From: a virus | Reading direction: 5' to 3' (one strand) | IMG/VR virus record: IMGVR_UViG_3300025828_000047 | Span: 1 to 42,246 of that record | DNA: 42,246 nucleotides | In this document: piece after piece, positions 3,632 through 39,000 of the stretch | How positions within the stretch are numbered: the stretch's first letter is position 1 | Layout of the letters: each line of letters opens with the position of its first letter | The notes under the pieces: model-generated | The model's input: the letters and a program-made list of their open reading frames with translations, nothing else | Database searches by the model: none | Told to the model about the DNA's origin: nothing | Translations under genes and position numbers: made by a program

Positions 3632-4017
3632 TATTTGTCTCCCTTTTCTGGACGCCAGCCTGTTAGCCATCTTTCTTCTCTGCCTTCAACCCACTGAACG
3701 TAACAATTATAACAACAATCATACTTGCTCATGTAGGCATCATCTTTTATACTGAAAGAAAAAGTTTCACAAACGGGGCAGTCTCTCCTTACGAATTCTT
3801 TATTAATTAGTTTTTTAGAAACTAAAATGCCATTGACTTCGTATTTCTCTTCGCTTTCTTGGAAAGATCGTTCTTTTTCTGCCAGGATTTTCAATTGTTC
3901 TTTATAACATTCTTCCTTTTCATCGTTCCAATACTTTCTTGGGTTTTCAATTGCCTCTGTACCGTATTTCTGGGCAATAGCTTTTTCTATCCTTGCAATT
4001 CTATTTGGGTCCTTCAC
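3631..4017 (-). CDS. Small zinc-ribbon protein, unknown function
   Basis: 128 residues. The start is GTG at 4017-4015, overlapping the upstream TAG as TAGTG and preceded by a strong GGAGG, so the non-ATG start is well supported. The N-terminal half is a charged helix (Lys/Glu-rich, residues 1-60). The C-terminal half carries two cysteine knuckles, CPVC at 80-83 and CYNC at 102-105, the spacing of a zinc ribbon; an extra Cys sits at 101. It ends with a Trp/Arg-rich segment (VEGREERWLTGWRPEKG). No catalytic domain is visible. It lies between the membrane-protein cluster and the packaging genes and is coupled to both. A nucleic-acid or protein-binding role in late gene expression or packaging is only a guess. 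Confidence 0.82.
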   Translation of the reverse strand: MKDPNRIARIEKAIAQKYGTEAIENPRKYWNDEKEECYKEQLKILAEKERSFQESEEKYEVNGILVSKKLINKEFVRRDCPVCETFSFSIKDDAYMSKYDCCYNCYVQWVEGREERWLTGWRPEKGDK

Positions 4018-4217
4018 TATGCCTCCATTTTTTCTTTGATAAGGGATACTAAATTTGATGCATCATGTTCAAAAAGGAAAGGGAAAAACGCATGTACTAA
4101 ACAAATACAAGATGCGTATAGTAGCAACAGACAAAAGCCTATAGCTCTTAGCATGTGCCCCAAATAAGACATCCCAATAGAGTTTGGATGTTCACGGAAT
4201 AGCTCTATCAATCGCAT
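4017..4217 (-). CDS. Small membrane protein, DUF6356-like
   Basis: 66 residues starting at ATG 4217-4215 (MRLIELFREHPNSIGMSYL), with GGGA about 6 nt upstream. A TTG four codons earlier is a weaker alternative. The pattern L-F-x-x-H-P-x-S-x-x-x-x-Y-L-x-H-M, then a hydrophobic stretch (residues about 25-46) and an H-A-x-x-P-F-L-F-E motif, matches my memory of DUF6356, a small uncharacterised membrane family of Proteobacteria. The hydrophobic part is long enough for one transmembrane helix, perhaps a hairpin. The gene overlaps the preceding coiled-coil gene by 26 nt and its stop is shared with the next gene's GTG. Because it sits with two spanin-like genes, a holin-like or lysis-regulating role is conceivable, but nothing in the sequence proves it. 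Confidence 0.8.
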   Translation of the reverse strand: MRLIELFREHPNSIGMSYLGHMLRAIGFCLLLLYASCICLVHAFFPFLFEHDASNLVSLIKEKMEA

Positions 4218-4635
4218 ATGCAGTCCCAATCCCTAATGCTATACCAGCCACCACACTTCCAGCTATAACTAGCGGAAGGTTGACCTTCCTGTCCTTTTTA
4301 ATTAGTTCTCGTAATGACTCTATTTCTTCGTCTCTAAGAGAAATCTTTTCTTCATATCTAAAAGTTCTCTCTTCTAGCTTAATGTTTAGAGTTTCTATGT
4401 CTAGAATGTACTTTTCTCTTTGTAGGCTTAATTCAAAATTCAATCTATTTTCAAACTCTCTTTCTTGGAATTCTCTCCAAGTTAGAAGTTTAGCAGTAGC
4501 AATATCGTCAAAGCATGTAGCTTGAAATGGTACACGACCACCGCTTGGCACCAATGTGAAGCTGCCGTCTTGTGCCATCGCCGGGTTACACAAGACTAAA
4601 CTTATACTTAATATTTGTGCAATCTTACTTAACAT
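4192..4635 (-). CDS. Secreted coiled-coil protein with C-terminal membrane helix; possible spanin partner
   Basis: 147 residues from ATG 4635-4633 (MLSKIAQILSISLVLC), chosen over an in-frame TTG at 4647. Three parts are visible. First comes a signal peptide with an A-M-A site before QDG (residues about 1-21). Next is a long charged Glu/Lys/Arg helix with heptad character (about 50-115) that should form a coiled coil. Last is a glycine/alanine-rich hydrophobic helix (LVIAGSVVAGIALGIGTAYA, about 121-140) near the C-terminus. This predicts a periplasmic coiled coil anchored in the inner membrane by its C-terminal end, opposite to a classical i-spanin. The cysteine in SLVLC does not fit a lipobox well, so a lipoprotein is not favoured. 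It overlaps the upstream spanin-like gene by 11 nt, as spanin pairs often do. The lysis role is inferred. Confidence 0.8.
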   Translation of the reverse strand: MLSKIAQILSISLVLCNPAMAQDGSFTLVPSGGRVPFQATCFDDIATAKLLTWREFQEREFENRLNFELSLQREKYILDIETLNIKLEERTFRYEEKISLRDEEIESLRELIKKDRKVNLPLVIAGSVVAGIALGIGTAYAIDRAIP

Positions 4636-5002
4636 AATCAAAACCAAATGCTTGTTCTATCTGTTCTGCTAGTAGTTCTGGGTTGTCTCTCCGCAATGTG
4701 ACAACCTCTTCTGTCCTAGAGTCTCTAGCAGCCTCTATGTCACGCTGCACCGTCTCAAAGATGGTCTCTAGCTCTTTTATTCTATCTTGGTACTGCTGTA
4801 TGACTTGTTTCTGAAGCTCTGCCTCGCGGGCATGACTTTTCCTAATCACAGCAAGTTCTTTTTCGTACCTCTCAGTGGCACTGTCGAAGCTCTGTATTAG
4901 AGAAGAACGGTCATAATACCATGAAGCAGAAACGGTTAAAAGCAATAATCCAATTAATATTTCTTTCCAGTATTTGATCAAAAGTGTTCCTAATGGATTC
5001 AC
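4625..5002 (-). CDS. N-terminally anchored coiled-coil protein, i-spanin (Rz)-like
   Basis: 125 residues. The start is GTG at 5002-5000 with GGAG 5 nt upstream; no in-frame ATG precedes it. Residues about 13-29 (KEILIGLLLLTVSASWYY) form one transmembrane helix. They are followed by a long charged helix rich in Glu, Gln and Lys (residues about 33-105) with coiled-coil character, and a short tail ending FGFDYVK. Size and layout match inner-membrane spanins of the lambda Rz type, which link inner and outer membranes in the last step of lysis of Gram-negative hosts. No sequence signature fixes that identity, because spanins are recognised mainly by architecture. The gene overlaps the next coiled-coil membrane gene, which supports a functional pair. 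Gene 29 nt upstream is the SbcDC-like fusion. Confidence 0.8.
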   Translation of the reverse strand: MNPLGTLLIKYWKEILIGLLLLTVSASWYYDRSSLIQSFDSATERYEKELAVIRKSHAREAELQKQVIQQYQDRIKELETIFETVQRDIEAARDSRTEEVVTLRRDNPELLAEQIEQAFGFDYVK

Positions 5003-5031
5003 TGTAACTCCACATGTATAATATAATTAGT

Positions 5032-8000
5032 TTAACATTCAACAAAAGCATGACCCTCTTTTTGTTCGATAGATATCTGCATATCGACACAATCCTTTAG
5101 AGCCTCAAGGTGAGAGATCAAAAGAACGGTCTTGAAATGACTCTTAATCATGTCTAACATTCTTGTAAAGCCTTCCATGTTTTCTTCATCGAGTGCTGTG
5201 CCTGGCTCATCAAGGATAAACACATCACCTTTGGGTAGGTTTGAAACTGAAAGCATAGCAAGTCTAATTGCCATGGCAGCAATTGTTTTCTCAGCACCTG
5301 ACCCCATCTCAAGAGGTCGTGACTCCTGGCCTGGGTGTTGGATATGGATATTCAATCTCTTGCCATCATCCTCAAAGTAAACGTCAAAGTCAACGATATT
5401 CATCAAGAACTTAGAGATTTCTTCATTGATTACGGGAAGCTTACTTTTAATAATATCATAGGCTATGCCATTGCTGTGCATGCACTTGAGGTAAAGGTCG
5501 TATGCAGAATACTCCTCTTGTAGTCTGACAAGTTCTGCCTGCTGATCTCTTAGGTTCTCTATCTTCTGCTCTAAGGAGCCAAGCTTTTTGTACAAGAATT
5601 TTGCTTGATTGTCGAAGTTCTTCTTCTTTGTTTGAGCATTGGCCAGAGCAACCTCAAGGGCTCTCTTATTAGCCATGAGAGTATTTAACCCATCGATAGC
5701 TTCCTTATTAATATTATATTGTTGCTGCTTCTCCTCTAAACCTTCTATCTCAGTAATCAAATTAGAAATGATCGCTTTATTCTTGTCGATTGTGAGCACA
5801 GCCCTATCCAAAGCTGTTTCGTATTGCGAACGCTTTGACAGCATCTTCTGATGCTTATCAAGTTGCTCCTGTGCCTCTGTGGGGTCAAGGGCATCTCGCT
5901 TCTCTTGTAATTGAGCCTTATGAGAGTCTAGCTCAGAAAGCTGGTGCTCGTTTGTAGGAATATTAGCTTTTGCGACATAAGCATCTTTAATAAACTTACA
6001 AGTGGGGAAAGAAGAACCACAAGGGATACCCTCTAGCGTTGTTGCTTGTCTTTCATTTTGCCTCTTCTCTTTTGCTATCTCGCTGATCTTTTGATTTAGT
6101 TCTTGCATAAAATCATCAATCTTAGAGCACTTATCTACTCTATTCTCATATGTCTTCGCATCAAAGTCATCGATATAGTCGGTGAATGTTTTGATAATCT
6201 CTGTATATCTAATCACCTTTTGCTCTAATTCAGTTTGCTGGTCTTGAACGGACACTAATTGGTTTCTTTTATCTTGCAGCCGCCTTGTCAAGTCAGCGAT
6301 GTCGATAAGCTCAGTGGGCGTTGAATCAATCTTCACCTGAAGCAGAGCTATATCTTTGCGATACCCTTCGATCTTTTCTGCTATTGCTTTAAGCTCACCT
6401 TGCTTAGTCTTATGATCTTCGATGCATTCTTCTAGGTCGTACAGAGCTTGGTCGATATCTGCGGCATACTCTTTTCCCTCAAGTCTCTTGAGTGCTCCAC
6501 GCAGATCAGATGCTTCGACTTTTGCAAACTTGTACTTTCGATCAAACAGTTCTAGGTCTAGGAACTTAGCAAAGATTTCTTTACGCTTCGTTGAGCCTTC
6601 ACGAATAAAAGAAAGAGAATCCAGCTGAGAGGACATTGAGGTTAGAAGAAAATCGTCAACTGTTCCAAAAACCTTTCTAATCTCCTTATCCGTATCGTTT
6701 CTGGTAAGGCCATTGCGCTCTGACTTAAAGCCATCAATCGACACAGACGTAAAGTTAACATCTGTCTTAGCCTCTGTTATTTGCTGGCCCTTTGACTTCT
6801 TTGTGTATTTGTCAGACTGTCGAGTAATATTCCACACTGTTCCGTCTTCTGTGAGGATTTCTAGCACACCACGAGCATACTCTTTATCAAAGTTAATTAC
6901 ATTTAGGTTTTTTCTTTCGTTCTTTGATGTGGTGTTGAACATCGTAAACAGTAAGCTATCGATAATGCTAGACTTACCAGAGAAGTTCTTTCCAAAGATG
7001 CCTACGATCCCATTCAACTTTGCAAAGTCAATGTGATTATCTTCGCCATAGTTGAACAAGTTGTCGAAAGTTAGGCTACGAATAGCCCAATTGACATTTC
7101 TTAAGACTTCCTCTTTCTCTTCGGCCATAAGGTTATACTTGTCATTCAGTTGGAGAATCTTGTTCATGACAGAATCACTAAGATTGTAATCCGACAAAAA
7201 CTCCTTAATAAGTCTTCTTTGTACCACAATATCTCGTAAATCGTCGTGACGAATATGATCTACGGTGCCAACGTCAAGGCTATTCTGGCTAATGTTTCTA
7301 TTGAGAAACGTGATGCTCTCTGGCTGGTATTGGTGCTTTGCCACGTCAACAGCTTTCTTCATCTCTTCTAGAGAAATGCTCTCATTTGAGACCAACCTAA
7401 TGCGAGCCCCTTTATCAACTTGATACGTCGGAACCTTGCCGCTCTGTAGTTCTAGAGTAACGAAGGGCTTTGGATTCTTAAACGTAACGCGCTTGACAGT
7501 GAAGCTATCCCTATCTTGGATGTCCCAAATGAGCATACCCTTATCTTCAGACTCTCCAAAGCCTTGCTGAACGGTTGAACCTGCATAGCGGATCTTACCC
7601 TTCTTATCCATTGCCTGAGCTTTGTGGATGTCTCCCAAGAAGCCATAATCAAACTCTTCAAAGATTGTCACATCATGCTCACCCTTTTCCATAGTCCAGC
7701 CACTGTCCGTTTGGCAGTTAGAGATAGAGCCATGATACAAAGCAATATTAACATTATCGTAGTTTGATGGATCTTGCCAGTTGTCCTCATCGAATACAGA
7801 CAGGACAGACAGCGAAAAACCATCCCTTAGATAGACCTCTTGTGAATCCTTAAGCAAGTGTAGCTTGGGGTGCTCAAGTGCTTCCACAATGGGCGTTAAG
7901 GCGTCGAGACGGCCTGTATTCTTGAGGTTGCCATCGTGATTACCAAGGATCACATATGTCGGAGCAATGTCAGCTAGTCTGCTTAGAAAAGCGGAACACA

Positions 8001-8175
8001 TATCGACAAACTCTGGTGATATTTGTGTCTTTGTGTGAGCTATATCACCACAATGAATAATGTAATCTACATCTTCTTCAAGGATCGCAGCGTAAAGCTG
8101 TTCAAATACATCATTATATTCTTTGTGATACTTAAGATTCCTAATATGAGTATCAGCTATGTGCGCAAACTTCAA
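5032..8175 (-). CDS. SbcD-SbcC (Mre11-Rad50) fusion nuclease/ATPase, T4 gp47-gp46 equivalent
   Basis: A single 1047-residue chain carrying both halves of the SbcCD/Mre11-Rad50 DNA end-processing nuclease, which T4 makes as gp47 and gp46 for recombination and host DNA breakdown. The N-terminal metallophosphatase part (1 to about 345) has D8-x-H10, D44 (CGDIAH), N79-H80-D81 (GNHD), H148 (YHGS) and H184 (GDIHKAQ). The SMC-like ATPase follows: Walker A GKNFSGKS (395-402), long coiled coils, a hook at C719 and C726 (CGSSFPTC), signature SGAEK (about 959), Walker B VFILDEP with D989/E990, and an H-loop (SH, about 1020). The start is TTG, the only initiator after an in-frame stop at 8197, with AAGGGGGAG 3-7 nt upstream. 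No frameshift or internal stop is seen, so both activities should be intact. Confidence 0.95.
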   Translation of the reverse strand: MKFAHIADTHIRNLKYHKEYNDVFEQLYAAILEEDVDYIIHCGDIAHTKTQISPEFVDMCSAFLSRLADIAPTYVILGNHDGNLKNTGRLDALTPIVEALEHPKLHLLKDSQEVYLRDGFSLSVLSVFDEDNWQDPSNYDNVNIALYHGSISNCQTDSGWTMEKGEHDVTIFEEFDYGFLGDIHKAQAMDKKGKIRYAGSTVQQGFGESEDKGMLIWDIQDRDSFTVKRVTFKNPKPFVTLELQSGKVPTYQVDKGARIRLVSNESISLEEMKKAVDVAKHQYQPESITFLNRNISQNSLDVGTVDHIRHDDLRDIVVQRRLIKEFLSDYNLSDSVMNKILQLNDKYNLMAEEKEEVLRNVNWAIRSLTFDNLFNYGEDNHIDFAKLNGIVGIFGKNFSGKSSIIDSLLFTMFNTTSKNERKNLNVINFDKEYARGVLEILTEDGTVWNITRQSDKYTKKSKGQQITEAKTDVNFTSVSIDGFKSERNGLTRNDTDKEIRKVFGTVDDFLLTSMSSQLDSLSFIREGSTKRKEIFAKFLDLELFDRKYKFAKVEASDLRGALKRLEGKEYAADIDQALYDLEECIEDHKTKQGELKAIAEKIEGYRKDIALLQVKIDSTPTELIDIADLTRRLQDKRNQLVSVQDQQTELEQKVIRYTEIIKTFTDYIDDFDAKTYENRVDKCSKIDDFMQELNQKISEIAKEKRQNERQATTLEGIPCGSSFPTCKFIKDAYVAKANIPTNEHQLSELDSHKAQLQEKRDALDPTEAQEQLDKHQKMLSKRSQYETALDRAVLTIDKNKAIISNLITEIEGLEEKQQQYNINKEAIDGLNTLMANKRALEVALANAQTKKKNFDNQAKFLYKKLGSLEQKIENLRDQQAELVRLQEEYSAYDLYLKCMHSNGIAYDIIKSKLPVINEEISKFLMNIVDFDVYFEDDGKRLNIHIQHPGQESRPLEMGSGAEKTIAAMAIRLAMLSVSNLPKGDVFILDEPGTALDEENMEGFTRMLDMIKSHFKTVLLISHLEALKDCVDMQISIEQKEGHAFVEC

Positions 8176-8210
8176 GTCTCCCCCTTTGCTTATGGTTTAA
8201 AATAAACATA

Positions 8211-9152
8211 CTACAAGCTCTTTATTTTTTGCAATAAGTAGTTCTCCGCACTCATTACGGTGGCTTGTTCTTTTCTCTCTCTAAGAACGTTTTCTGGCAT
8301 TTCTGCCACGTCTTCCCAGCCCTCTACGCTGATTAAGTGAGTTTCTACGCCGTATCTCATCAAACAATCTGCTATGGATGATGTCTTTTTCTTATCCATC
8401 TCTGTGTTTTCATCCAAAGCAAGGTACACTTTTGGATCATGGCGCACAAGGTTCTGGAACAGTTTTGAATTAATTCGGAGAGTTGAGCCAACTAGAGGTA
8501 TGGCAGTACCTACAGTTGAGGCTCGGATCGCATCAAAAACTCCCTCTACTAGAATGACATCTCTATCCCAATCAACATAAAGTTCGTTAAATACAATATC
8601 CCTGTTTACTCTTGGATTCTTATATCTCATCCAATCTCCGTCATACGAGCGAGCTATAAAGAAATTGGCTTTGCCTGTCATACTAAAAGATGGAATAATA
8701 ATTCTACCTCTGTACTCTCCTTCATCGCAGAAACCGATCTTCCAGCGTAAAATATCTTTTCTCGTCACGCCACGACCAATCAAATAGTTCATAGCATTCT
8801 GAGCAGAGATCGTATTTGTATTAGCAAGGGAGCGAAACTCTTTTGGAAGCTCAACTACTTCTTCTGGCTTTTCTTCCTCTTCTTCAAAGATATTGTCAAA
8901 GCCACCTAATTCTACCCTGTTGGTTAGGGCTCTCCATTCTTGGACGTGCGAGAAAGAACCGTACCTACGGATAACTTGGTAAACATCGCTGCTTCTCTTG
9001 TCACAAACCCAGCACTTGTACACGTTCTTGTCCACATTGACAGAGAACTTTCTCTTGTGATGGTTGCAATAAGGGCATATAAAAAGATGCTCTTGACCAG
9101 AAATACGAGACCGACCAAGAACATCTTTCAGGATTTGAAGCTTTTCTCTCAT
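8211..9152 (-). CDS. DNA primase, DnaG-type with zinc finger and TOPRIM
   Basis: 313 residues. It synthesises RNA primers for lagging-strand replication, equivalent in role to T4 gp61. The N-terminal zinc-binding domain has C26-x2-C29 (CPYC) and C47-x2-C50 (CWVC). A Glu-rich linker follows (residues 89-102), then the catalytic core with the TOPRIM motif VILVEGVFDA (E203, D207) and a second acidic patch YLALDENTE (D247). It is much shorter than bacterial DnaG and lacks an obvious C-terminal helicase-binding domain, as is usual in phages; no helicase is encoded in this window. The start is ATG with only a weak ribosome site (CUAGAG), and the start codon lies in the 3' arm of a perfect hairpin (9143-9176), suggesting translational control. 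It ends 35 nt before the TTG of the SbcDC fusion. Confidence 0.92.
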   Translation of the reverse strand: MREKLQILKDVLGRSRISGQEHLFICPYCNHHKRKFSVNVDKNVYKCWVCDKRSSDVYQVIRRYGSFSHVQEWRALTNRVELGGFDNIFEEEEEKPEEVVELPKEFRSLANTNTISAQNAMNYLIGRGVTRKDILRWKIGFCDEGEYRGRIIIPSFSMTGKANFFIARSYDGDWMRYKNPRVNRDIVFNELYVDWDRDVILVEGVFDAIRASTVGTAIPLVGSTLRINSKLFQNLVRHDPKVYLALDENTEMDKKKTSSIADCLMRYGVETHLISVEGWEDVAEMPENVLRERKEQATVMSAENYLLQKIKSL

Positions 9153-9191: not shown

Positions 9192-11873
9192 TTAACCCTT
9201 GATTAATTTTTGCCAGCGATTGTAGATAGATTCATCCAACTCTCCACGAGCTTGTGCTGCCGCGAACTCTCTTTCAAATTCATCAGGCTCTGTGTTTCTG
9301 TCGTAAAATCCACTTTCAATCTTTTCCATTTCTATTTTAATCTCTTCAGCAGTCATTTTTATTTCTTCGTTCTGCTGGATACTAACGTCTTCACCTTGTG
9401 CGATTACATCTTTTAACAATGCTAACATTGTAATCGTTTTCCCAATCAAACTAATCGCTCTTTTTCTATTGCCTAGAGGGCCTTTGGCAAACGTCATCTT
9501 ACCGAAATCAGCGATATCTCCCGGCAAGAACTCATCCACTTTACTAAAATCGTAAGTAACAGTCTTAGTCGGCCCTTTCTTGGCCTTGAGACGCTTCTCG
9601 ATGTTTCTTAAATCCTGAACTGCTTGTTCAATCGCAGGTGCTGCAGACGTCATAGCAACTACACTGCCACCTGTAGCGGCAGCAGGTGATGCCGCCTGGC
9701 CTATTGAGAGGCTACTTGACTGCGTGGCGCTCGGGAGAGTACCAGTAAATTCTTTCTTTGAGCGCTTAATTAATTCAATTGCTTCTGATGGCCCGAATTG
9801 ACGTTTAAGCTCGGCGGCAGTTGCTTGATACCACTTTTGGAAAGCACTATAGGAACTGTCTTTTGGCAATACAGCTTCTTTCAAATTATCTCCAGTGGTC
9901 GCCGCAATCCACACTCTAGCCATTTCAGCATGTTTTGGACTCACTGAAGCAAACTTACGCCAGTCAGCAGGAATACCGGAAAGATCAACTGCTGAACTTG
10001 ACTGTTGTGATGGCTTGGATACTTGAGTTGGCATCTTCTGCCTTAGTTGGGTATACATCGGACTGACAGCATTCTTGAAGCCACCTTCAGCCGGTGGTTC
10101 AACCACTAAAGGCTCTGCTAGTAAGCCGAGAATCTTATCATTTCGTTGTAATTCTTCATAAGATTTTGGTGGAGCAGCAAATACATCGCTCATAGTTTTA
10201 AAGATCCTACTTGCTACTTGTATCCTATCCTGATCCGTGCTTCCCCAGCTGTTCCATGAACCATTGCTTTGCAAATATTGTAAAATACTGTCTGCACTAG
10301 ATAGGTTTGCTGATGCCTGCTCAGCCAGAACAGTTTTAACTTCTTGGATAACCATTTCCTCTAATTGCTTGCTTGTGAGTTTCATCTTCTTTGATCTCCT
10401 TTGTTGTCTTTCAATTCTTTTAGCTAACCTGACCTGTAAATTATTTTTTGCTCTCTCGATCCTGGCTTTAAGCTTTTCACTGTTTTTTGCTTTTGGCAAT
10501 AAACTTTCTAATCTTTCAATCTTCTTTACTAAAGCTGGAAATGGCAACGAATTGTCCGAGCCACGCTCAGTTTGCTGTCCAAATTGTTTTGGGTTTATTG
10601 GCAATAACTCACCAGATTCTGCATTATTTAATTCCTGTTCGACTGAACGTTCAATTAACTCTTCCATAGTTTCTTTGTCAACTCGACCAGTCGCTTCTAG
10701 GCGATTTCTTTTTTGAAAATCAATTACTGCTTTTTCTGTTCTAGGGCCAAAATACCCATCTATTCCAATTCTGATACCTGCTGTTTGTAGCAGCCCTTGT
10801 AGAACCCTAACTATTCCTTCTCCTTGCGCACCAGAAGGCAAGGATCTATCAAATTTTTTCAAGACTCCTTTATTATTTAGGATATCTTCTTGTGTGAGGT
10901 TAGTCACTTGATATGTTGGTCTAACATTTGTACTGACCGCTGTCTGAGCCTGTTTTCGTGCTTCCTCTGGAGTGTCCCCACCTTTCTCAACCTCGGCAGC
11001 TACTTGTTTCTCTGTTTCGGCAACTCCACTTAATACAATTTTATTAGCGTTAACAGCAGAAGATACCACTCTATCAACAAGCTTTAAAAGTGCTGTTTCT
11101 GCCGCATCCTCACTCTTAATACGAAAACGATCTTCTGTGCCACGATCTCTAGCATACTGCCATTCAGAAGCGATCATCTTCTTAACCAAACTGGTCAATG
11201 AATCCTTCATAAATGCTTGTTTTATTGGAGTCGGGCTAATTGGACTGTTTGCTACTGTTATCTCATTAGCTTGCTCAATAAACGCCTGCCTTCGACCAAT
11301 CGCTTCCGTGCTTGGGTTATTGGGAGTATAATCTATGGTTGCTGTCGGAGCGTAATCAGCGCCGGACATGACCCTATCTAGACCCAAAGAGGGAACCCAA
11401 TATTCCTTAAACCTGCTATAAAAATCTGTTGCGTTAAAGATGTAGCTACAGCATTCTGCTAAGAAGTTTGCATACTCTTGTGAGTATGCAACCATTGAGT
11501 CACTAAGTGGCTCAGAAGCATCATCTGGTATTAACTTAAGTATTTTTTCTGTGTCGGGGTTTGAGCTACTTTGCTGCACCCAGGCTTGGAAAATATTAGC
11601 TAAATATGCAGAGGTTGGGGCACCGACGAGAGCAGTTTGTCTTAGGCTAAACTGCCCTCCTGACGTAAACATTGCTTTGCCAAGACTTTTAAGTACCGGC
11701 CCTAAAACTTTAGTGCCAAGGAAACTAAGTGCTGAGCCTGCCATCGGTGCTGCTGCTCTAAGACCTAAAGCTCCGAAACCCACTTCATCCAACTGCCGCT
11801 GCTCTTTCATAGCAGACTTAGCTTCTTCAATAATAATTTGATTTATTTCAAATTCGGTCAACTTATGTGCCAT
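9192..11873 (-). CDS. Large modular protein with peptidoglycan-binding domain and two copies of an N-terminal helix motif
   Basis: 893 residues from ATG 11873-11871 (MAHKLTEF), with GGAGA 8 nt upstream; a TTG at 11888 is less likely. Module 1 begins with the helix KLTEFEINQIIIEEAKSAMK, then a Gly/Ala-rich hydrophobic stretch (about 38-75). It also carries a peptidoglycan-binding-type domain (about 349-405, with IDGYFGPRTEKAVIDFQKRN and TGRVDKETMEELI) and a very basic linker (about 460-496). Module 2 restarts with MKLTSKQLEEMVIQEVKTVL (497 onward) and runs through Ser/Ala-rich segments to a conserved-looking acidic end (NRWQKLIKG). No catalytic muralytic domain is recognised. It could be a virion protein that contacts cell wall during entry, or part of lysis. 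It overlaps the RuvC-like gene by 11 nt. Function uncertain. Confidence 0.85.
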   Translation of the reverse strand: MAHKLTEFEINQIIIEEAKSAMKEQRQLDEVGFGALGLRAAAPMAGSALSFLGTKVLGPVLKSLGKAMFTSGGQFSLRQTALVGAPTSAYLANIFQAWVQQSSSNPDTEKILKLIPDDASEPLSDSMVAYSQEYANFLAECCSYIFNATDFYSRFKEYWVPSLGLDRVMSGADYAPTATIDYTPNNPSTEAIGRRQAFIEQANEITVANSPISPTPIKQAFMKDSLTSLVKKMIASEWQYARDRGTEDRFRIKSEDAAETALLKLVDRVVSSAVNANKIVLSGVAETEKQVAAEVEKGGDTPEEARKQAQTAVSTNVRPTYQVTNLTQEDILNNKGVLKKFDRSLPSGAQGEGIVRVLQGLLQTAGIRIGIDGYFGPRTEKAVIDFQKRNRLEATGRVDKETMEELIERSVEQELNNAESGELLPINPKQFGQQTERGSDNSLPFPALVKKIERLESLLPKAKNSEKLKARIERAKNNLQVRLAKRIERQQRRSKKMKLTSKQLEEMVIQEVKTVLAEQASANLSSADSILQYLQSNGSWNSWGSTDQDRIQVASRIFKTMSDVFAAPPKSYEELQRNDKILGLLAEPLVVEPPAEGGFKNAVSPMYTQLRQKMPTQVSKPSQQSSSAVDLSGIPADWRKFASVSPKHAEMARVWIAATTGDNLKEAVLPKDSSYSAFQKWYQATAAELKRQFGPSEAIELIKRSKKEFTGTLPSATQSSSLSIGQAASPAAATGGSVVAMTSAAPAIEQAVQDLRNIEKRLKAKKGPTKTVTYDFSKVDEFLPGDIADFGKMTFAKGPLGNRKRAISLIGKTITMLALLKDVIAQGEDVSIQQNEEIKMTAEEIKIEMEKIESGFYDRNTEPDEFEREFAAAQARGELDESIYNRWQKLIKG
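10383..10400 (-). promoter_or_regulatory. Strong internal ribosome site and ATG inside the peptidoglycan-binding gene
   Basis: Reading the minus strand, AAAGGAGATC is followed 10 nt after GGAG by an in-frame ATG (10385-10383) that begins MKLTSKQLEEM. This resembles the anti-Shine-Dalgarno complement better than most true starts in this window. Initiation here would give a separate 397-residue product (9192-10385) identical to the C-terminal module of the 893-residue protein. The site may be functional (two products from one gene) or a relic of a fusion between two adjacent genes. Confidence 0.55.
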
Positions 11874-12402
11874 TCTTTGCGTCTCCAATTAGCTTGATAG
11901 CTGCTCTTGCTATGATTAAACTGTCTGCTCTATCATAAGATACTGGCTTGGGGTTCCCTCTGCTAGTATATTCTATAGTGAAAGACTCTTCATTCTTCAA
12001 TAAATAGTCCAAAACAACATCTTTTGCCTTTTGGCCTCTGGAAACTTTAATGCCACTTAACTTTCTCGCTTGGGCTGGAGATATATGAACTGGTCTATAT
12101 CCAAACGTGTCATGACACAGCCAAGAAACAATACCATTAAAGGCTTGAAGTTTCGCCATTGTCTTGGCTGTTGAGCCACCTGATTTAAAGAAAACAAAAG
12201 GTTCCTCAATATAGACATGTTTTATATTGTAGTAAAGATTTATTTCCTTAAGTTTTTCTTTAATAAACGATCCTTTATTATAGAGATCTGAAAATAAACG
12301 TTTGTTTCTTAAGTCCCATGCTTCACAAATTATTATTTTTGCTTCCTCGTCTAGAATCGTATATCCTGTAACTGAGGTGCTTATATCTAATCCCAATATC
12401 AT
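11863..12402 (-). CDS. RuvC-like Holliday junction resolvase
   Basis: 179 residues with an RNase H fold. It begins MILGLDISTSVTGYTIL, with the first catalytic Asp at D6. The second acidic site is VYIEEP (E66/E67), and the last pair is D157 and D160 in YDRADSLIIARAA, matching the RuvC set of four acidic residues. It should cut four-way DNA junctions; in T4 that job belongs to the unrelated endonuclease VII (gp49), needed to debranch DNA for packaging. The ATG overlaps the stop of the preceding structural gene as ATGA, so it is translated together with late-type genes, and it overlaps the following gene by 11 nt. A more general RuvC-family nuclease is possible, but the motifs are complete. Confidence 0.9.
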   Translation of the reverse strand: MILGLDISTSVTGYTILDEEAKIIICEAWDLRNKRLFSDLYNKGSFIKEKLKEINLYYNIKHVYIEEPFVFFKSGGSTAKTMAKLQAFNGIVSWLCHDTFGYRPVHISPAQARKLSGIKVSRGQKAKDVVLDYLLKNEESFTIEYTSRGNPKPVSYDRADSLIIARAAIKLIGDAKNGT

Positions 12403-22753: not shown

Positions 22754-23889
22754 TAATATACGGTTCCAGGCTTATCGCTGCAAGGATCATCCAAGTCTGG
22801 GCAAGGCTCGGATACTGCATCTGTACTGTAAATATCTACCAGTGCAATATTTTTCACATCTTCGCATTCAAAATCAACATTGATGTATCTGCCATCTTTC
22901 TTATTCTCTTCGATTGATGAGCAGATAAGCTGGCTATTAATCTGCTTATCAACATATATGTTGAAATAATATTCAACATTATCAGGTGTTATTGGTTCAT
23001 TTGACGTTATGATTTCATCATCATCTAATAGAATTCCATCTTGAATATTAGATGGTCTTCTCCTAAACTTTAAAGGCTTTAGTCTTTCTACGAGAGAAGC
23101 CTCTAGTCCAGCAACACTTTCCGTAGTTACCTCAAACACTTCAATTTCAAAATTATCTTTGGTAAATTCTGAATTTAATTCTTTAACTTGACAAAGTAAT
23201 ATTTCAGGATCAATATCCAGTATCTCTCCATTCTCAAACTGGATCGCCAGTTCAGTATCCGATATGAAATCTCTGTTTGTTATAGTATCTATTTTGTAGG
23301 TCAGGTCTACATTGATTTGTGGAATATCAAGCGTTGGCCTTGTAGAGCTAGAAAACGTATCTGTAGAGGAAGCTATCTCTCCACGCAGAAGTGTGATTGA
23401 CCAAGCTGGAGCTTTCGTTGTCAGCTTATCAGTTGTGCCAAGCGCATATTGAGGACCATAATAATCTCTGTCAAATGCACTAGTATCTGATAAAGACTTT
23501 AGGTTTTCTTTTGCTTGTTCTATCTCTGCTGGTAGCTCTAAGCTAAGCTTGGGTGACAGCACTGGTCCAGTGTTAGCCCCCCCTGGGGACGGAGAAGTTC
23601 CTGCAACTCTCAACCTAGTCGTCAATAAGCCTGTTTTATGAAAAACATTTCTATCAGAAAAAACTGTTTGTGTTGCAAGTTGCGGAGTATCTTCTTGAAT
23701 TCTGGGTTCTATAGAATTCTGCTCTCTTTCGGGAGACTCGTTTGGTCTACCATACTGACTCTCATAAAGAATATTGTCGTCAAAAAACGCATAGTATTCT
23801 GGCTTTAGTCGCCCTACCGACAATAAGTATTCACCATAAGGAGTTAGGACCGTATCTAAAACTTCTTCTTTTTTATCTAGAAATTTCAT
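22753..23889 (-). CDS. Structural protein with FLD/VLT N-terminal module and Cys-containing tail
   Basis: 378 residues. It starts MKFLDKKEEVLDTVLTPYGE, and residues 1-50 align with the N-terminus of the 296-residue protein at 14999-15889 (FLD, xLDxVLTxxG, FxxxDDxIxY). The middle is mixed, with several acidic stretches, and the last 22 residues carry EPCPDLDDPCSDKPGTVY, echoing the DPC motifs in the tail of the next gene. The ATG overlaps the stop of the giant LamG gene as ATGA, and its own stop overlaps the next ATG as TAATG, so three structural genes are translationally coupled. It probably joins the baseplate or tail through the shared N-terminal module. Confidence 0.87.
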   Translation of the reverse strand: MKFLDKKEEVLDTVLTPYGEYLLSVGRLKPEYYAFFDDNILYESQYGRPNESPEREQNSIEPRIQEDTPQLATQTVFSDRNVFHKTGLLTTRLRVAGTSPSPGGANTGPVLSPKLSLELPAEIEQAKENLKSLSDTSAFDRDYYGPQYALGTTDKLTTKAPAWSITLLRGEIASSTDTFSSSTRPTLDIPQINVDLTYKIDTITNRDFISDTELAIQFENGEILDIDPEILLCQVKELNSEFTKDNFEIEVFEVTTESVAGLEASLVERLKPLKFRRRPSNIQDGILLDDDEIITSNEPITPDNVEYYFNIYVDKQINSQLICSSIEENKKDGRYINVDFECEDVKNIALVDIYSTDAVSEPCPDLDDPCSDKPGTVY

Positions 23890-26800
23890 TCTTGTTCGCT
23901 CCCAATAAGGTCAATTTTGGCGTCTATTTTAACTAGCTCTACCATAGAAAAGAAGTCATAAGGCCAGTTGTAACTATATTCCGTTTCTCTCTTCTTACCA
24001 GCAATCTCAAATTCAAACTTAAATCTCTTATCATCTAGGTTATCTCCAGACTTTGAAGCAACCTTAGAGAAGTAGTTCTTAACTGCCTTTTGTTTGACTT
24101 TGAATACCATCCACTGAAGTTGGTCTGGGACCTCGCTAGAGTTTAACAGCTGATCTTCAAGAACCTTGTGGCTGATTGATGCTTGTTGTTCCTCTACTCT
24201 TTCGATTGATTTTGGAGGTAGATTTTGCCAAATATGAGTTAGGTCGTCTGAATCAAAAGTGTGGCTAAACTCGAAAATGTACATTGCTATTGGCCTAACT
24301 GATGGATTCGTCGCAAAATCAAACTTTGGTGGGAATACATAGTTCTGCATCTTTGAATACATATCTGCAATTGAATTATCTTCTGGTAGCTTCCCAGCCC
24401 TCATTGCTTGGGCTATGGTATCTGGTATTTCAAAGAAGGCTTTTGATGAGCCTCTCTGAACAAATGGAATCGCCACAACGGCTTCTTTTATTTCTTTAGC
24501 TTGTGCTACTTCTCCAAGTCTACGTGGGTCTTGACTAATTCCCAACAAATCAACCAATGACTCAGTATCTGCCCCATCATAGTAGGTTGTTGCATTCGGG
24601 TGCTGTGCTAGCCACTCACTTGGTATATCAGTAGCTTGTAGGAATATTCCCTTCTCTGGGGTATCAGGTGGTAATCCAAACTGGTGCCACATGCCACGCG
24701 GCACTGATTCAGAACCGTAAGTTGGCATCGTTAAATTACTCTCTAGGTCAACAGGAGAGTCAGCAAAGTTAAACATAGGAGTTTCCCACTTTGGCTGTAT
24801 CACCATCGCAACATGATTAGCTGTTGGGTCATCAGAAATCTTTGTTGGTTGACCAGTAACGGGATCATATTCTACTGATTTAATTCTAGCTCTGCCATCA
24901 GTAATCAACACATCGTCTAGGTTAAGTATGTTCTGCCTAAGAGGTCTTTTTCCGGCTACTAGATTTGGATTATAGAATCCCGCGTTATTGCCAATAGTAA
25001 AATTATCATCAAAACGAATGCTGAGTTCTGCGCTGATTGCTCCTAAAATTTCTTCTAGTCTGTACTTCTTTGTCTCTGTCGCGGTAAAAGCAAAATCTAG
25101 CCATGCTTGGCCATGGTAATATGGTGGAGTAGCAGCCCAATTGTATCCGCTATGACTGTCCAGCATTCTCTGTGACAGTGTTCCATCATGATCTGTTTGT
25201 GCAAGAGCGTTTCTACCTGTTATCGGATGGTAAAAAGCAGATGGCCTACTGTACATTGTAAACGTTTCACGTAAATCTGATTGAAGCGGATTGTCTTGTG
25301 GCACTTCATAGCCTAGGCTACCAAATGTTCTAGAAGTGTTCATGCTTCTATACATCTTGACTCTCATCGCATATGTCGTCCCAGATACTGCATTACCGAA
25401 CCCTGGATCACTTTCTGGTAAAGATGTAATCGTAGTCATGTTTCCGTTTGGCAAGAAGAATTCTGGGCACTCTCCAAAGAAGTTGCTTGCCATCATTCTA
25501 TACAATGGATCGCCTTGGCCATTCCAAGACGCTGTAAGATTCATGGATGCACTTGGGTGAGGAGCAGCATCAAGTATCTGAAAACCAGCAAGATACTTCT
25601 CCGGCTCTACTGCCGCCTCAAAATCAATATATCTTAGTAATGCCTCGCCACTTCCACTAATCGCATAGTAACTATCACCTAGAGTTTGCACTTCAAAGCT
25701 GCTTGTCATAACCGGATAAGGAACTCCGATACCACTTTTGACTGAATTATAAACAATGCCGGGTGCGAATACAGGCTCCAAGAATGGCCTTATTTTAGCC
25801 TGCTCGTAAGTAGAATCAGCACCTTCAACTTTAACAAACTGTGCATAGGAAGAAGAAAACTGTGTTGCCATCTGTAGTGTTCTTTCCGCAGGATAGAAGC
25901 CGTTATATGGTAGGAACTTCATGAGAGCTTTACAGGACAAAGTAATCTCTCTATCGGTGGTTACATCTCTATGGTCACTATCTATAATATCAAAGTGCCT
26001 AAGGAAGTCGGAATTTGAGTATACATTATAGAATTGCTCATATGAGCTATCAGTGGGGAAATCAGAAGAAGCTGTCGCCCCGAAGATATCAAATGAAGCA
26101 GTATTCTCTGCTAGGAAATCCCCAGCCATAGTCGATACATAGTATTCCATGTGATCACTAATTCTAAACTCTGGGACCACTGAATAGTCCTTACCATGAT
26201 ACCTTATCTCATTTGCATAATCAGAGTATGTGTTGTAAGCAGGATTGGATCTATCGCTAGAGCCGGTCACAAAGGAACCATTCTTTATCGCTCCTGCAAG
26301 CTCTCCCGTCTGCCACAAAGCGTTACCATTACCAATATCGATGTAACCAAAGATATCTCCACCTGTCCCTGCCGCAGAGCCCGTCTGTGAAATTACAATA
26401 CCAGATGGAGCTACGACAGAAGATGTTGTAGCAGAATAATGCTTGTGAGAGTATAGTGCTGATGCCGTGATGGCTGTCTTTGTACCGTGGTGCGTGTAAG
26501 TTCCAAAGTTCTGTAGCTCTCCTGCTGGATCCGTGGCGTCGTTCTCTGCCTTAATACCAGCTACATCATAGGTAGTAAATGTTGGCTTCGCATCAAGAGC
26601 CCAAATGCTGTAGAGGCTACGACCACCAAGGCTTACCTTATTCGCTTTATTATCATTTCTCGTATCTCTGTCAGAGTGCCAGAAGTTAATTTCATAACCT
26701 TCTCGCTGACGGATTCTGTTATCATAGACGTTTCTTTCAGATGGATACACGGTCTCTTCATACATTAAACCAGCAAATCCATATTCACCGTATAGCCTCT

Positions 26801-29800
26801 TGGTATTATTGTAAGCTTCAGAAGAATTACGTGATAGGTGCTGCCTTTCGTTAAGCTCATAACTTGAGAAGAAACTTAAATTGTTTCCATATGTTGAAAT
26901 AATGTCGTAATCTCCAACCATCTGGACTATTGGCTTGTACCTTGAAATAATCGGAGATTCTCTAAATTGCTTATATGACCCGTATCTCTGTGCTGGGAGC
27001 ACTCTGCCGCCTGGTGAATAAGTTTGCTTGTCTGCACTTAAAGTAGAAATAATATGCGTATCTCTTAGATTTCTTGCAACTGGATGTTCGCCTACCCTGA
27101 TTTGGTTCCATGTATTGAAACCAAAATTATCGCCTCTATGAGATAAAATAACATTTAAAGCGTTTCCTATATTTGAAACGGAACCAAAGTTATTTGTCAG
27201 GTAAGAAACCATTCCTGTGCCAAGTGGGTATCCTAGAGTCTGCTCTGAAGAGCTTATTGGTTCTGAAATAACTGTATTTAACCCTACTGTATCGACAACT
27301 ATGCCTGTGGTGGACACGATATCGCTCTGGCTCAAGAAGGTTATCGCGTTAACATACCCAGCTGAAGTAGAGACCTCAAAGTTAGCTGGGGCATATCCAA
27401 GCATCTTTCTACCACTAGCTCTCGTTCCGCCTGGCTCTGTTGAGACATAAGATGCTGTAAGCCATGTGTATTGTAGGTCACTCTGCGGAATTGGTCTCGT
27501 AACAAACGCATTGTCTCTCACTGATCCCGTGGCCACTGTCCCTAAATCACCAACAAATTCGTTACTGTACTCAATTCTATTCAGTGTGTTTCTATTAATT
27601 TTAAAGTAGTTTGCAACACCAGAGTAATCGTCTTCAGTTGCAGACACTCCGTCTTTAAAACCAAACTGTGCCGATGAAGCTGACAGGAGGACCCTAAATG
27701 GGTTTCTTACTAATAAATTCCTGTACGGCAGAGCGTTATAGACACTAAACTGCGTTGTTGCAGAGTCTAGGGCACCATGGGCGACATCTGGACCTCCAGG
27801 CGAAGAGAACCGTGTCGTCATCATATGAGCAGAGCTAGAAAGGAATTGAACCTCAGTATCTACAATTCCAGTTATAACACTAGATGTAATATTACTTACA
27901 GCTACACCTTCGTTCCTTACAAACTGTGAATCTCCGCTGGCCCTGCCAGCTACTTGCACCACTTCTCTAATATTCGTGTAGTTGCCTAAAGTCTCGCTAC
28001 CAGTGGTTATTTGTAGATTCTCAATATTAACTGGTCTTTTGACTTTTACATTTCTCGTGAATACGGAGTACGGCCTTGTTGCGCGAGGCCATTGGCCTGC
28101 CTCATCCAAGCCTCGGAACCTAAGGGCTGTCGCAGATTGATTGACATAAAAGCTTTCCGCTCTAGTCGAAGCATCGTCAGTGCCATCAGAAATATTCTGG
28201 TGTCTTGATGAAAATCCTCCTACAAACTTTTCAGTAAACGGAGTTTGCATTGGAATCTCTCCACCTAAGTGATAAGATTCAAATGAGTGTATATTGACAG
28301 CCTGAAAATCAGTAAAGGTGGTGTTGTAGCCAGTGTCTAAGTTGCCACTTAGATACCTGAATGGAAGATAGTTTTGTGCTTTTATACCATCAAATACATT
28401 ACCGGCTGAATAGGTAAAGTATTTTTTATGCATAGGATGAATTACGTCGTCTATGTCCTTGATTGAATCACTTTCTCTCGTGGCGGTAGTTACGACGGTA
28501 CCGTAATTTTCTGTGTACTTGTCGATAAAAGCTCCAGGTCTTGTTGTTTGGGGAAGGTTGGTACCACCGTGAATAATCTTCCTACCAGTTCCAAATCTTG
28601 ATATCTTATCCTCGGAGTCTGCCTCAAAAGATATCTTTACGGGTGTCCCTCTTCTCCTCGCCCTATCAGACACTTTACTTTGTATAATTGCTGCCCTTGT
28701 CTGGTTGACACCATCGTCACTTGAAGATAAAACAGGGTGTGTTGCTTCAGCGTATTTCCAATAAACAGTGTTTTCAGATTCCAGATTAGACACAGGAGCG
28801 TGAGCGTGTCTCCAGTTTTCTATGTCTTCAGGTACAAGCTCAAAAATACCTCTAGCTTTACCAGAAACCTCAAGGGCTGTCATCGGAGTTCTTGCCTTAA
28901 GGTCTATAGTTGGGAATTTTGCATGATATTTGGGTCTTTCCAGCACATGGCTTTCAATCATGGTCCGAACATCTTCAGATGTATTGGCAGAAGCAGGAAT
29001 GAACTGTCGCAAGATGATTGATAGCGATGAATCAATCCATCGATAAAAGTCAACGTATTTATCAAGATCAGGAGTATTTTCTACATTTTCGAAAAACAAG
29101 CTTCTTAACTTGCGTAAATCCTTGTACTCCTGGCGGTATCTGTTGACAGGCTCGCCAATTAGGTTATTGAAGCCTATAATTGTAGAGAACATATTAAGCA
29201 TCTCTTCAGAGATTGTTTGATACATACTCTTCTCAATCGCAAAGAAGTGATTTATTGTCCTACTGTCTCTTGTAAACGTCTCGTCATCAAACTCAAGGAC
29301 ATTCGTCATGTCGTAGCTTGTAATGACCTCTGGCGGATTCTGTACGGCTGTTTGTACATACTCTACAGCAATTGAGCCTGTTGCGCTAGCTGGGAAGAAA
29401 AATCCGCGCCCAGTGTATTGGTTAGCAACCGATTGGCCAAAATCACCCGGATATCTATCCCTTTTCTCAATCGAGCCAGAAGAAAAATCGTTAACTAAAA
29501 ACTCTCCGTTAGAGTCAGATTGACTCACATCTTCAAGGTTCCAGTGCAACGCCAGAGTTTCAATCCTGGGGATAATGCTACCCTCTAGATCGGTATCGTA
29601 CACAAACGCACTCTCGTATGGCCTCAGAACACCATGAGCGTTAGTGTTCTTCGCATGAGAAATAATTTCATTGTTATCTAAGAATGTATTCCAATGTCTA
29701 AGGGAAGTTATTTTGAGATCCGATTCATTTATTAAAGAACCGGTAAAGTTTGTCCTGTGTGCTCCGAAGTAGTATCTTCTTGGGTTACTTATGTAACCAT

Positions 29801-36084: not shown

Positions 36085-39000
36085 CTAGTCATCTCCATTT
36101 TTACAAGGGGCAGGTCTTAATGAACTCCACTGCCACCATTTGATTCCTGGGTTTAGGTCAGAATTAGAACCTAAATTGTCAACGTAAACCTCAGATGGAC
36201 TCATGTAGTCTTTATCCCTGTAGTCATAACTAGTATAGCAAGCAGCTTCTAATGTCTGTCTAGCTACTAATTTTGTATTTTTGAAGGAGTTCTTCATTCC
36301 TTCGTTACCACGCCAAGTGTGCATCCCTCCATTTTTTCCTGCACCAATCCAGCGACCGCCACCTCTTTTCTTGTTGTTCGCCGTCGCAGCCCAACCATCT
36401 TCAACTCTTGCAAGGGAAGGTACAAATGTGTTGACACAGTAAAGAGCTAGCAGATCCATGTACTTAGGTATCGGATAACAGTGCTCAAATAGAGTCTTAT
36501 AAGCTGGCGTCTCTATCAGTAGGCATACTAGTCGCTGAAGATAGTCGTTGTAAAGCCCAGCCTCATATGCATCAGTTGTTAGCTGTATCTCAGCAGACGC
36601 TATTGGGATTGCGTTTTTGTATAGCGAATTGAAAGCTTTATGTGTGTATCCCGTTTCCTCTGAGACTCCAGCCAATGCGCTACCCATACTATCAGTAAGA
36701 TTAGAAATTCTAGCTGCGCTTGGAATAAAGCTGATCCTTAATCCAAAATAAACTTCATCCTCCGCTAGTACCTCTCCAGTGTGGGCGATTTGAGCATCAA
36801 AAATATTTGATACGAAACCAAACAGCTTAAAAGTATTTGCTGTGTCCGTAGAACCCTTGGAAATAAGATACCTTTCAAGTACAAAGGGAGTATTGGAATT
36901 TGATATTAATATATCTGGACTGTCATATGGGTGTGTTGCACTAACTCCAGCAATAGAAGACTCAAAATAGGCAGCATTTGGTACATCATATGGTCCTGCT
37001 TCTGTCGTGCCTATAGCGCCTCGGATAATTGTGGGACTCTTCAAGATAATATCATTAACATCCTTGAAATTTGGACTCACACCCTCTGAGAAAATTTCTG
37101 TTGTCCTTGCGTATTCGTTACGGATATAGCGCCTAAGTATCGTCTTACAACGTGATATAATCGGAGATTCGACTGTTTCTGGTAAACCAGTAACTGCGTT
37201 TACTCCCACGGTACTTTGGAATATAGTGTCCCAATTCTGCTTCCTACGCTTAGCGAGTCTCCTCGCAGAGTTCAAGCCTGTAATCAACCCAGGGGGAACA
37301 TATACCCAGTTATCCTCAACGAATTGGTTGATAAAGTCTAGAGCTTCTTGCTCCTCTGGTGTAATATCTGTTATAAGTCCTAGATTGACTTTAATTCCAA
37401 AGTTCTGGACAACTTGCTCCAAGAATAACCACCAATAATCTTCATATTTTTCAACAAAGCGTTTGCCACGACCTGCGTCTTTCATGCCCTGTTCCATCTT
37501 GTCTATTACGAATTCAGATAGCATCTCGCCATAGTTAAATTCTGACAGGGCTAGGTATTGCAAAACAGGGAGACCCTTCATTAGAACTTCAACAACATAG
37601 GTCCTTATTGTAGCATATATCGTGCCTTCGATTATGCCAAGAGAAGCTTTTGATAAGTGTCTATCGAAAGGTAACTCTCTCTCTGCACTTACACCCTTGA
37701 CTTTGAGACCGGCTCTTTCGTCCATTGGGACTTTGGCGCTAAACTCAGAGCACACAGATTTCAATGATGAAAAGTCTGGGAATGTAACGACATCGCTACT
37801 ATCTTCACATGGATTAAACTCAGGAATGATTTTTTGTGCTATTCTCAAATAACCTTTATTGTCGGGCTGCTTGAGGTAAAATGGCGGATTACCTTCAGAA
37901 CCACCGTATCTCTCTACAGCTGCACCGATATCTCCATCAAATTCTTCTTCATGGAAATATTTTATAATTGGTGGTTTAGTCGCATCAAATCCATAAACAA
38001 ACGGTGAGTTGTCACTTCCTTCCGCAGCAACTAGCTCTGCTAGGGCTTCTAGAATCCTCTGGCTTATTTTCTCAAACCCAATGACCATAGAGTCTTCAGC
38101 AGAATCATACTCTACATCAAACTGAAGTGATCCAGCAGCATCGCCTCTGGGAGTATCTGGCTGCCCTAGATATTCATATACACTGTGTTCTACAAGTGCT
38201 TGGAAAGTTGAGTCTGGGCTAGATGAGCCACCAATGTAGTAATCACTTAATATATTACTCTTAAAGCCTGCGATAACATCGTCAACGGAAGACTTAATGT
38301 CAAAGTAACTTATCACTTCTTCATATGGGTCTCCGCCTTCATCTTTCCAGTTTTCATTCTTCATGTTTATTCTTAGCCTATGTCCATCCCATGAGTGCTG
38401 TTGTCCGTCAGGTGGGGTGGTCCAATAATCGAAACTAAAAGTAAATTGCATGGTATCTGGATTATCATAATCAAACCAGAATAAGTTAGTGGTGTATCCA
38501 CTCCCTACATTGAAGGGGGTGCTTAAGTTAATTAAACTATCTTGCAAATGTCCTGCGACCTTGTCTGGTAAGCCGCCTAGTGCTGGGGCCTTACCAGAAA
38601 TTTCGTCTCCATTAGAATTGTTACCTGTATTTTCTTCTGTTTCGCCGTCGCCTGTTGAAGATAAAGGGTTAAATAAGAATGGCAGCTTAAATATCTTTGT
38701 ACCTTCTGTGAATTCTCTTGGCCCTGTTACCCAATTATTGTGGTCCTTAGGAGTATTTGCCCCATCTCCCCACTCGTCTCTCGGGGGATAAGCTCTGGTG
38801 CCACGAGAGCCATATATGTTTAGAACGGATGGCCCCAGGACAGAACTCTGGAACCCAAGGTGTTGTCTATAACCTCTGCCCCTAGAATCAGCCAGAACCA
38901 TGTTTAAGAATCCTCTTTTACCAATAATATCCTCAGTAAAAGATAGAGACATTGCATCAAAAATACTGTTATAGATGTTATCTAAAGCAATTGTCTCCAT

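Follow-up and report, generated by a model that had tools for sequence, protein, structure and literature searches.

A single gene for Mre11 and Rad50

The window, the whole 42,246-nt stretch of viral DNA analysed here, contains at positions 5032–8175 an uninterrupted minus-strand frame of 1,047 codons plus a stop, which opens with TTG and encodes a fused Mre11–Rad50 protein. A GGGGGA Shine–Dalgarno-like run lies immediately 5′ of the frame, and a comparison of starts showed that the start codon occupies a position common to the relatives, in which it is ATG, GTG or TTG. The features of the gene and of its recombination and replication neighbours are as follows (evidence in brackets).

5032–8175, minus strand: fused Mre11–Rad50 (SbcD–SbcC) gene (ORF, Pfam, PHROGs, relatives)
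8176–8187, minus strand: Shine–Dalgarno-like run AAAGGGGGAGAC preceding the TTG start (sequence; relatives compared)
7501–8175, minus strand: Mre11 nuclease domain, residues 1–225, with D8, H10, D44, N79, H80, H148, D182 and H184 (Pfam, invariance, model)
7294–7500, minus strand: Mre11 capping domain, residues 226–294 (model; Foldseek to SbcD nuclease and capping structures)
7249–7293, minus strand: flexible or disordered linker from the capping domain to the helix-loop-helix, residues 295–309, pLDDT <50 (model)
7117–7230, minus strand: Rad50-binding helix-loop-helix, residues 316–353 (model helices 316–326 and 334–353; homology to MR structures)
7093–7116, minus strand: fusion joint, residues 354–361, from the helix-loop-helix to the first Rad50 strand at 362 (model; codon comparison)
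6541–7092, minus strand: Rad50 N-terminal ATPase lobe, residues 362–545, with Walker A GKNFSGKS at 395–402 (Pfam, alignment, model)
6040–6540, minus strand: coiled coil, ascending arm, residues 546–712 (model)
5998–6039, minus strand: apex loop or hook, residues 713–726, with C719 and C726 as Cys-X6-Cys at 5998–6021 (alignment, model)
5479–5997, minus strand: coiled coil, descending arm, residues 727–899 (model)
5035–5478, minus strand: Rad50 C-terminal ATPase lobe, residues 900–1047, with signature GSGAEK, Walker B ILDEP and H-loop H1022 (Pfam, PDB matches, alignment)
8211–9152, minus strand: DnaG-type primase fragment with CHC2 zinc ribbon and TOPRIM region, directly upstream (Pfam, PHROGs)
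11863–12402, minus strand: RuvC-like Holliday junction resolvase, upstream within the same run of genes (PHROG_159, 1e-10)

Database matches divided the protein into two enzymes. Pfam recognized Metallophos (PF00149) in residues 1–184 (6.5e-13), AAA_23 in residues 367–609 and SMC_N in residues 365–1039; PHROGs assigned residues 1–347 to SbcD (4e-31) and residues 210–1041 to SbcC (3e-50), and PDB sequence matches were to Mre11 at the N terminus and to archaeal Rad50 at the C terminus. The first part is a calcineurin-like phosphoesterase domain with its metal ligands, in which the GHxH position reads GDIH, followed by a capping domain and a Rad50-binding helix-loop-helix (HLH), both recognized from AlphaFold2 secondary structure and Foldseek. 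The second part comprises two ABC ATPase halves with all of their motifs, arranged around a long antiparallel coiled coil. As in described Mre11/Rad50 fusions, Mre11 precedes Rad50 in a single ORF, the capping domain and HLH are present, and the linker adds about 9–12 residues. Across 52 aligned relatives, Mre11 residues D8, H10, D44, N79, H80, D81, H148 and H184 are invariant, and so are Walker A K401, Q-loop Q517, signature S959/G960/E962, Walker B D989/E990, D-loop D996 and H-loop H1022. The window protein is, in one frame, a complete Mre11/SbcD nuclease and a complete Rad50/SbcC ATPase, as an initial annotation made from the letters had proposed when it placed all of these nuclease and ATPase motifs in the same frame. 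That annotation had listed H148 and H184 correctly and overlooked the change between them: the GHxH of Pyrococcus furiosus Mre11 (H206, H208) is GDIH here (D182, H184). Asp at the position of P. furiosus H206 also occurs in Mimivirus R555 and T5 D12, and GDxH in T5 D12 and SSP002, whereas T4 has GHFH.

The joint lies at an interface that is docked in unfused complexes

An AlphaFold2 model of the window protein (64 sequences, mean pLDDT 83) reproduced the expected domain order of nuclease, capping domain, linker, HLH and Rad50, with coiled-coil arms of about 170 residues each; its pTM of 0.50 makes the placement of the domains relative to each other unreliable. Foldseek matched the model to MRN and SbcCD structures and, among viral models, to long fused proteins from mimivirus relatives and from the Tenacibaculum phages pT24 and PTm1.

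In unfused complexes, the Rad50-binding HLH of Mre11 is already docked on the root of the Rad50 coiled coil. The joint of the window protein lies between this HLH and the first Rad50 strand, which some 8–12 residues would connect, and so the fusion would fix an interface that is permanent anyway. Covalent 1:1 stoichiometry, anticipated by the initial annotation, follows directly from the fused chain; its further suggestion, that the fusion constrains how a dimer opens and closes, appears doubtful. Since the junction is at the HLH and the flexible linker at residues 295–309 is kept, the nuclease should, judging from known SbcCD structures, still be free to swing.

The fusion is conserved across viral contigs

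Since Mre11 and Rad50 are encoded by two separate genes in T4, T5 and E. coli, a fusion might arouse suspicion, and two adjacent genes might have been joined by a sequencing or assembly error near residue 350. A scan of viral contigs with the window protein returned 306 relatives, from which 80 loci were kept. The fused protein is encoded in a single ORF at 77 of them; two are truncated by the start of the contig, one (L080) is interrupted by an in-frame TGA at codon 199, distant from the joint, and none of the 80 is split at the Mre11/Rad50 joint. Near-identical copies of the window gene were present on three other contigs (L002, L008 and L021), for which sampling sites may be shared. Further, distant fused homologues were found in Microcystis phage Mel-JY01, Rhizobium phage RHph_TM40, uncultured phages of 484 kb and 735 kb and other viral contigs, nearly all of these more distant relatives having one ORF down to 20–30% identity. 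Between the window and L007, the joint codons 348–362 differ by 11 synonymous and no nonsynonymous changes, a pattern that reflects strong purifying selection on the joint. The same frame recurring in many metagenomes, the selection on a joint that has no conserved internal start, and the fused genes of the cultured phages Mel-JY01 and RHph_TM40 reduce the chance of an artefact to next to nothing; an assembly error or hidden stop at the joint is ruled out by the intact loci together with the joint selection. The fusion claimed at the outset is thus a real feature, and the hidden stop or restart near residue 350, or relatives split there, that had been named as grounds for abandoning it were searched for in related loci and not found.

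A fused product could nevertheless work as two proteins if, at the joint, translation started anew or a protease cut the chain. This would suit the ATG found at codon 337 in 30 of the 52 relatives and at codon 350 in 9, but none of the internal start codons at the joint is shared by all 52, no Shine–Dalgarno-like sequence precedes Met350 in the window, and what is conserved in the linker is its sequence and not a start site. We regard such a division of the product as quite improbable. With frames intact, joint differences synonymous only and no internal start conserved, the sequences argue that the fusion is translated and maintained.

In a tree of the sampled sequences, one branch (SH-aLRT 96) separates all fused phage proteins from the rest. 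Similarity to the window was the basis on which the fused set was collected, and several of the branches are long, that of RHph_TM40 above all, so the tree does not establish that the fusion arose only once. A scan of a genome collection found the fused gene at three loci, all in metagenome-assembled genomes (MAGs).

Several relatives are interrupted or oddly placed. In L083 (LR756508.1, a 484-kb phage; positions 4000–8170), Mre11 is interrupted after roughly residue 190: a 305-aa ORF that has zinc-ribbon-like cysteines and weakly matches a TnsA-like endonuclease (Pfam, 5.8e-6) separates the two halves, and the remainder of Mre11 is still fused to Rad50. The nuclease of L104 (3304–6550) is split at residues 192–197 in overlapping frames. 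Both of these genes and that of L080 (TGA at 6598) are interrupted at one spot just past GDIH; a group I intron was considered for the three and rejected, as there was no Rfam match. L106 (CP070664.1, a WOR-3 MAG chromosome record) has a fused gene 56% identical to that of the window; this gene adjoins a masked stretch, its neighbours, a primase among them, are phage-like, and the locus may come from a phage and have been wrongly assembled into the bacterial MAG. The full-length fused genes of L107 (NZCT01000014.1, archaeon MAG ARS1176) and L105 (an Acidiferrobacteraceae MAG), which sit on short contigs, are probably on viral contigs within the bins.

A Cys-X6-Cys loop at the coiled-coil apex

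An apex cysteine hook, named in the initial annotation, is present, and its departure from CXXC had gone unremarked: alignment and model place C719-X6-C726 in the apex loop. The Cys-X-X-Cys zinc hook usual at the apex of Rad50/SbcC is therefore not found in the window protein, which we class as Rad50 on the strength of its complete set of ATPase motifs and of the CXXC-bearing relatives in the same gene family. Among 63 fused proteins, 45 have CX6C and 16 CX2C, and the first cysteine is missing in 2 (L009 and L010); the unfused phages examined have CXXC hooks, except Moorella phage MTATph1 with CX7C. A paper on T4 Rad50 describes the CXXC hook as "absolutely conserved" (PMC13402864). A 71-residue search for the same hook in described phages returned chance-level matches only, and a literature search for CX6C or non-canonical hooks yielded just a paper on the RloC tRNase.

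A tree built without the coiled coil implies roughly five changes of hook type, of which well-supported branches force at least three to four. L013 (CX6C) shares about 80–100% identity with L017 and L026 (CX2C) in the nuclease and ATPase parts and mostly 32–82% through the coiled coil, and the CX2C hooks of L017, L026, L028 and L061 are closest to each other and to the Mel-JY01 group. These patterns suggest exchange of the hook module between close relatives, which the fast evolution of the coiled coil keeps short of proof. We put forward tentatively, as less likely than not, that the Cys-X6-Cys loop (consensus PCGxxxPxCKFIKDA) could be a second kind of Rad50 hook that replaces CXXC and passes as a module between close fused proteins, making the tethering chemistry switchable, perhaps to another metal geometry, to a disulfide or, where the first cysteine is missing, to no metal. 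The mixture of CX6C and normal hooks among close relatives amounts to a natural experiment on the importance of the CXXC geometry.

Genomic setting and proposed function

The phage that carries the gene is of aquatic type, large and tailed, with a T4-type portal. The primase gene is also a neighbour of the fused gene in Mel-JY01, L083 and L106, and the run that includes the window gene also holds, all downstream, a spanin-like gene, a terminase and a T4-type portal. Eleven long relatives (141–203 kb), whose records may be incomplete, each have exactly one Rad50-type ATPase; 10 of the 11 have one metallophosphatase, the L026 genome having an extra small one, and RecA was found in 10 of the 11.

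Other genes of the window were noted in passing. Overlapping genes at 4192–5002 encode an Rz-like inner-membrane spanin (PHROG_1152, 2e-4) and a 151-aa protein with a signal-peptide-like start, possibly the outer spanin. Between the primase and resolvase genes, positions 9192–11888 encode a protein of 898 aa that has a central peptidoglycan-binding domain and in which Pfam recognized no catalytic domain. Very large ORFs lie near baseplate wedge genes, at 23886–32306 (2,806 aa) and at 36085–42246 (at least 1,990 aa, running off the window).

We propose, with a probability of about 0.88, that the gene encodes a single-chain Mre11–Rad50 nuclease–ATPase that would process DNA ends as an M2R2 complex for RecA-type recombination-dependent replication, in which T4 gp46/gp47 acts according to established T4 work (quoted in PMC3175470). 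Two copies of the fused protein would assemble into M2R2; ATP binding would close the Rad50 heads and block the Mre11 sites; on binding of a DNA end and ATP hydrolysis, the nuclease would gain access to this end and resect it, leaving a 3′ single strand that a RecA-type recombinase would take up for recombination-dependent replication of the phage genome. The particle, its nuclease activity and this pathway are the most likely explanation of an intact, conserved fused frame in genomes where no second Rad50 was seen. The protein could instead have a job different from this one, such as breaking down host DNA or countering host nucleases or defence; the annotation of T4 gp46/gp47 gives them a required part in host DNA degradation besides recombination, and the fused gene lies near late-type genes (spanin, terminase). 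As the fused protein is the sole Mre11–Rad50 pair of long relatives that keep RecA, and as its primase and RuvC-like neighbours indicate replication and recombination, we think such a different role unlikely and favour end processing for replication.

Comparison with known systems

The two enzymes are separate chains in E. coli SbcD/SbcC and in archaeal and eukaryotic Mre11/Rad50, which share the domain content and fold of the window protein; the coiled coils are longer in E. coli, where SbcC alone has 1,048 aa. T4 gp47/gp46 are the same two enzymes, with the nuclease before the ATPase and a T4-type portal in the phage, but they come from two genes with small ORFs between them and have a CPTC hook. 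The contrast with two genes in T4 and bacteria drawn by the initial annotation therefore stands, for T4, T5 and E. coli; the novelty that it implied does not. The fused architecture has been known in viruses, including a phage, since 2011, when Yoshida, Claverie and Ogata reported such proteins from Mimivirus, Bacillus phage 0305phi8-36, plasmids and eukaryotes (PMC3175470). Their fused set included Mimivirus R555 and a C. kluyveri plasmid; they remarked on the shortness of the linker, inferred that aquatic viruses, probably phages, are rich in fused homologues, and saw that the aquatic scaffolds concerned also encode primases (PMC3175470).

The window protein resembles those fusions in having Mre11 then Rad50, a kept capping domain and HLH, a linker of about 9–12 residues, Asp for the second metal-ligand histidine (as in R555), aquatic abundance and primase neighbours. 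It differs from R555, which we compared by description and whose relatives were matched by structure only, in length (1,047 versus 1,351 aa), in its Cys-X6-Cys hook and in being carried by a large tailed phage. Rhizobium phage RHph_TM40 likewise has a single 959-aa Mre11–Rad50 chain (QIG71711.1, 'recombination endonuclease protein'), very divergent, with a short linker region, a CYAC hook and an uncertain position in the tree. Mel-JY01 WWT39521.1, annotated 'AAA domain containing protein', is full-length fused at 30.6% identity over 99% of the query and has a primase just upstream; its hook is Cys-X2-Cys (CKHC) and its carrier a fresh-water cyanophage. As a compact, fixed-ratio form of a complex usually purified as two subunits, such proteins would be useful for structural and single-molecule work. 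What is new here is mainly the non-standard cysteine hook and how widespread the fusion is: the 2011 study verified it in just a few long metagenomic scaffolds (PMC3175470), and it now appears, full length in dozens of viral contigs, as a trait stably kept by a large group of tailed phages.
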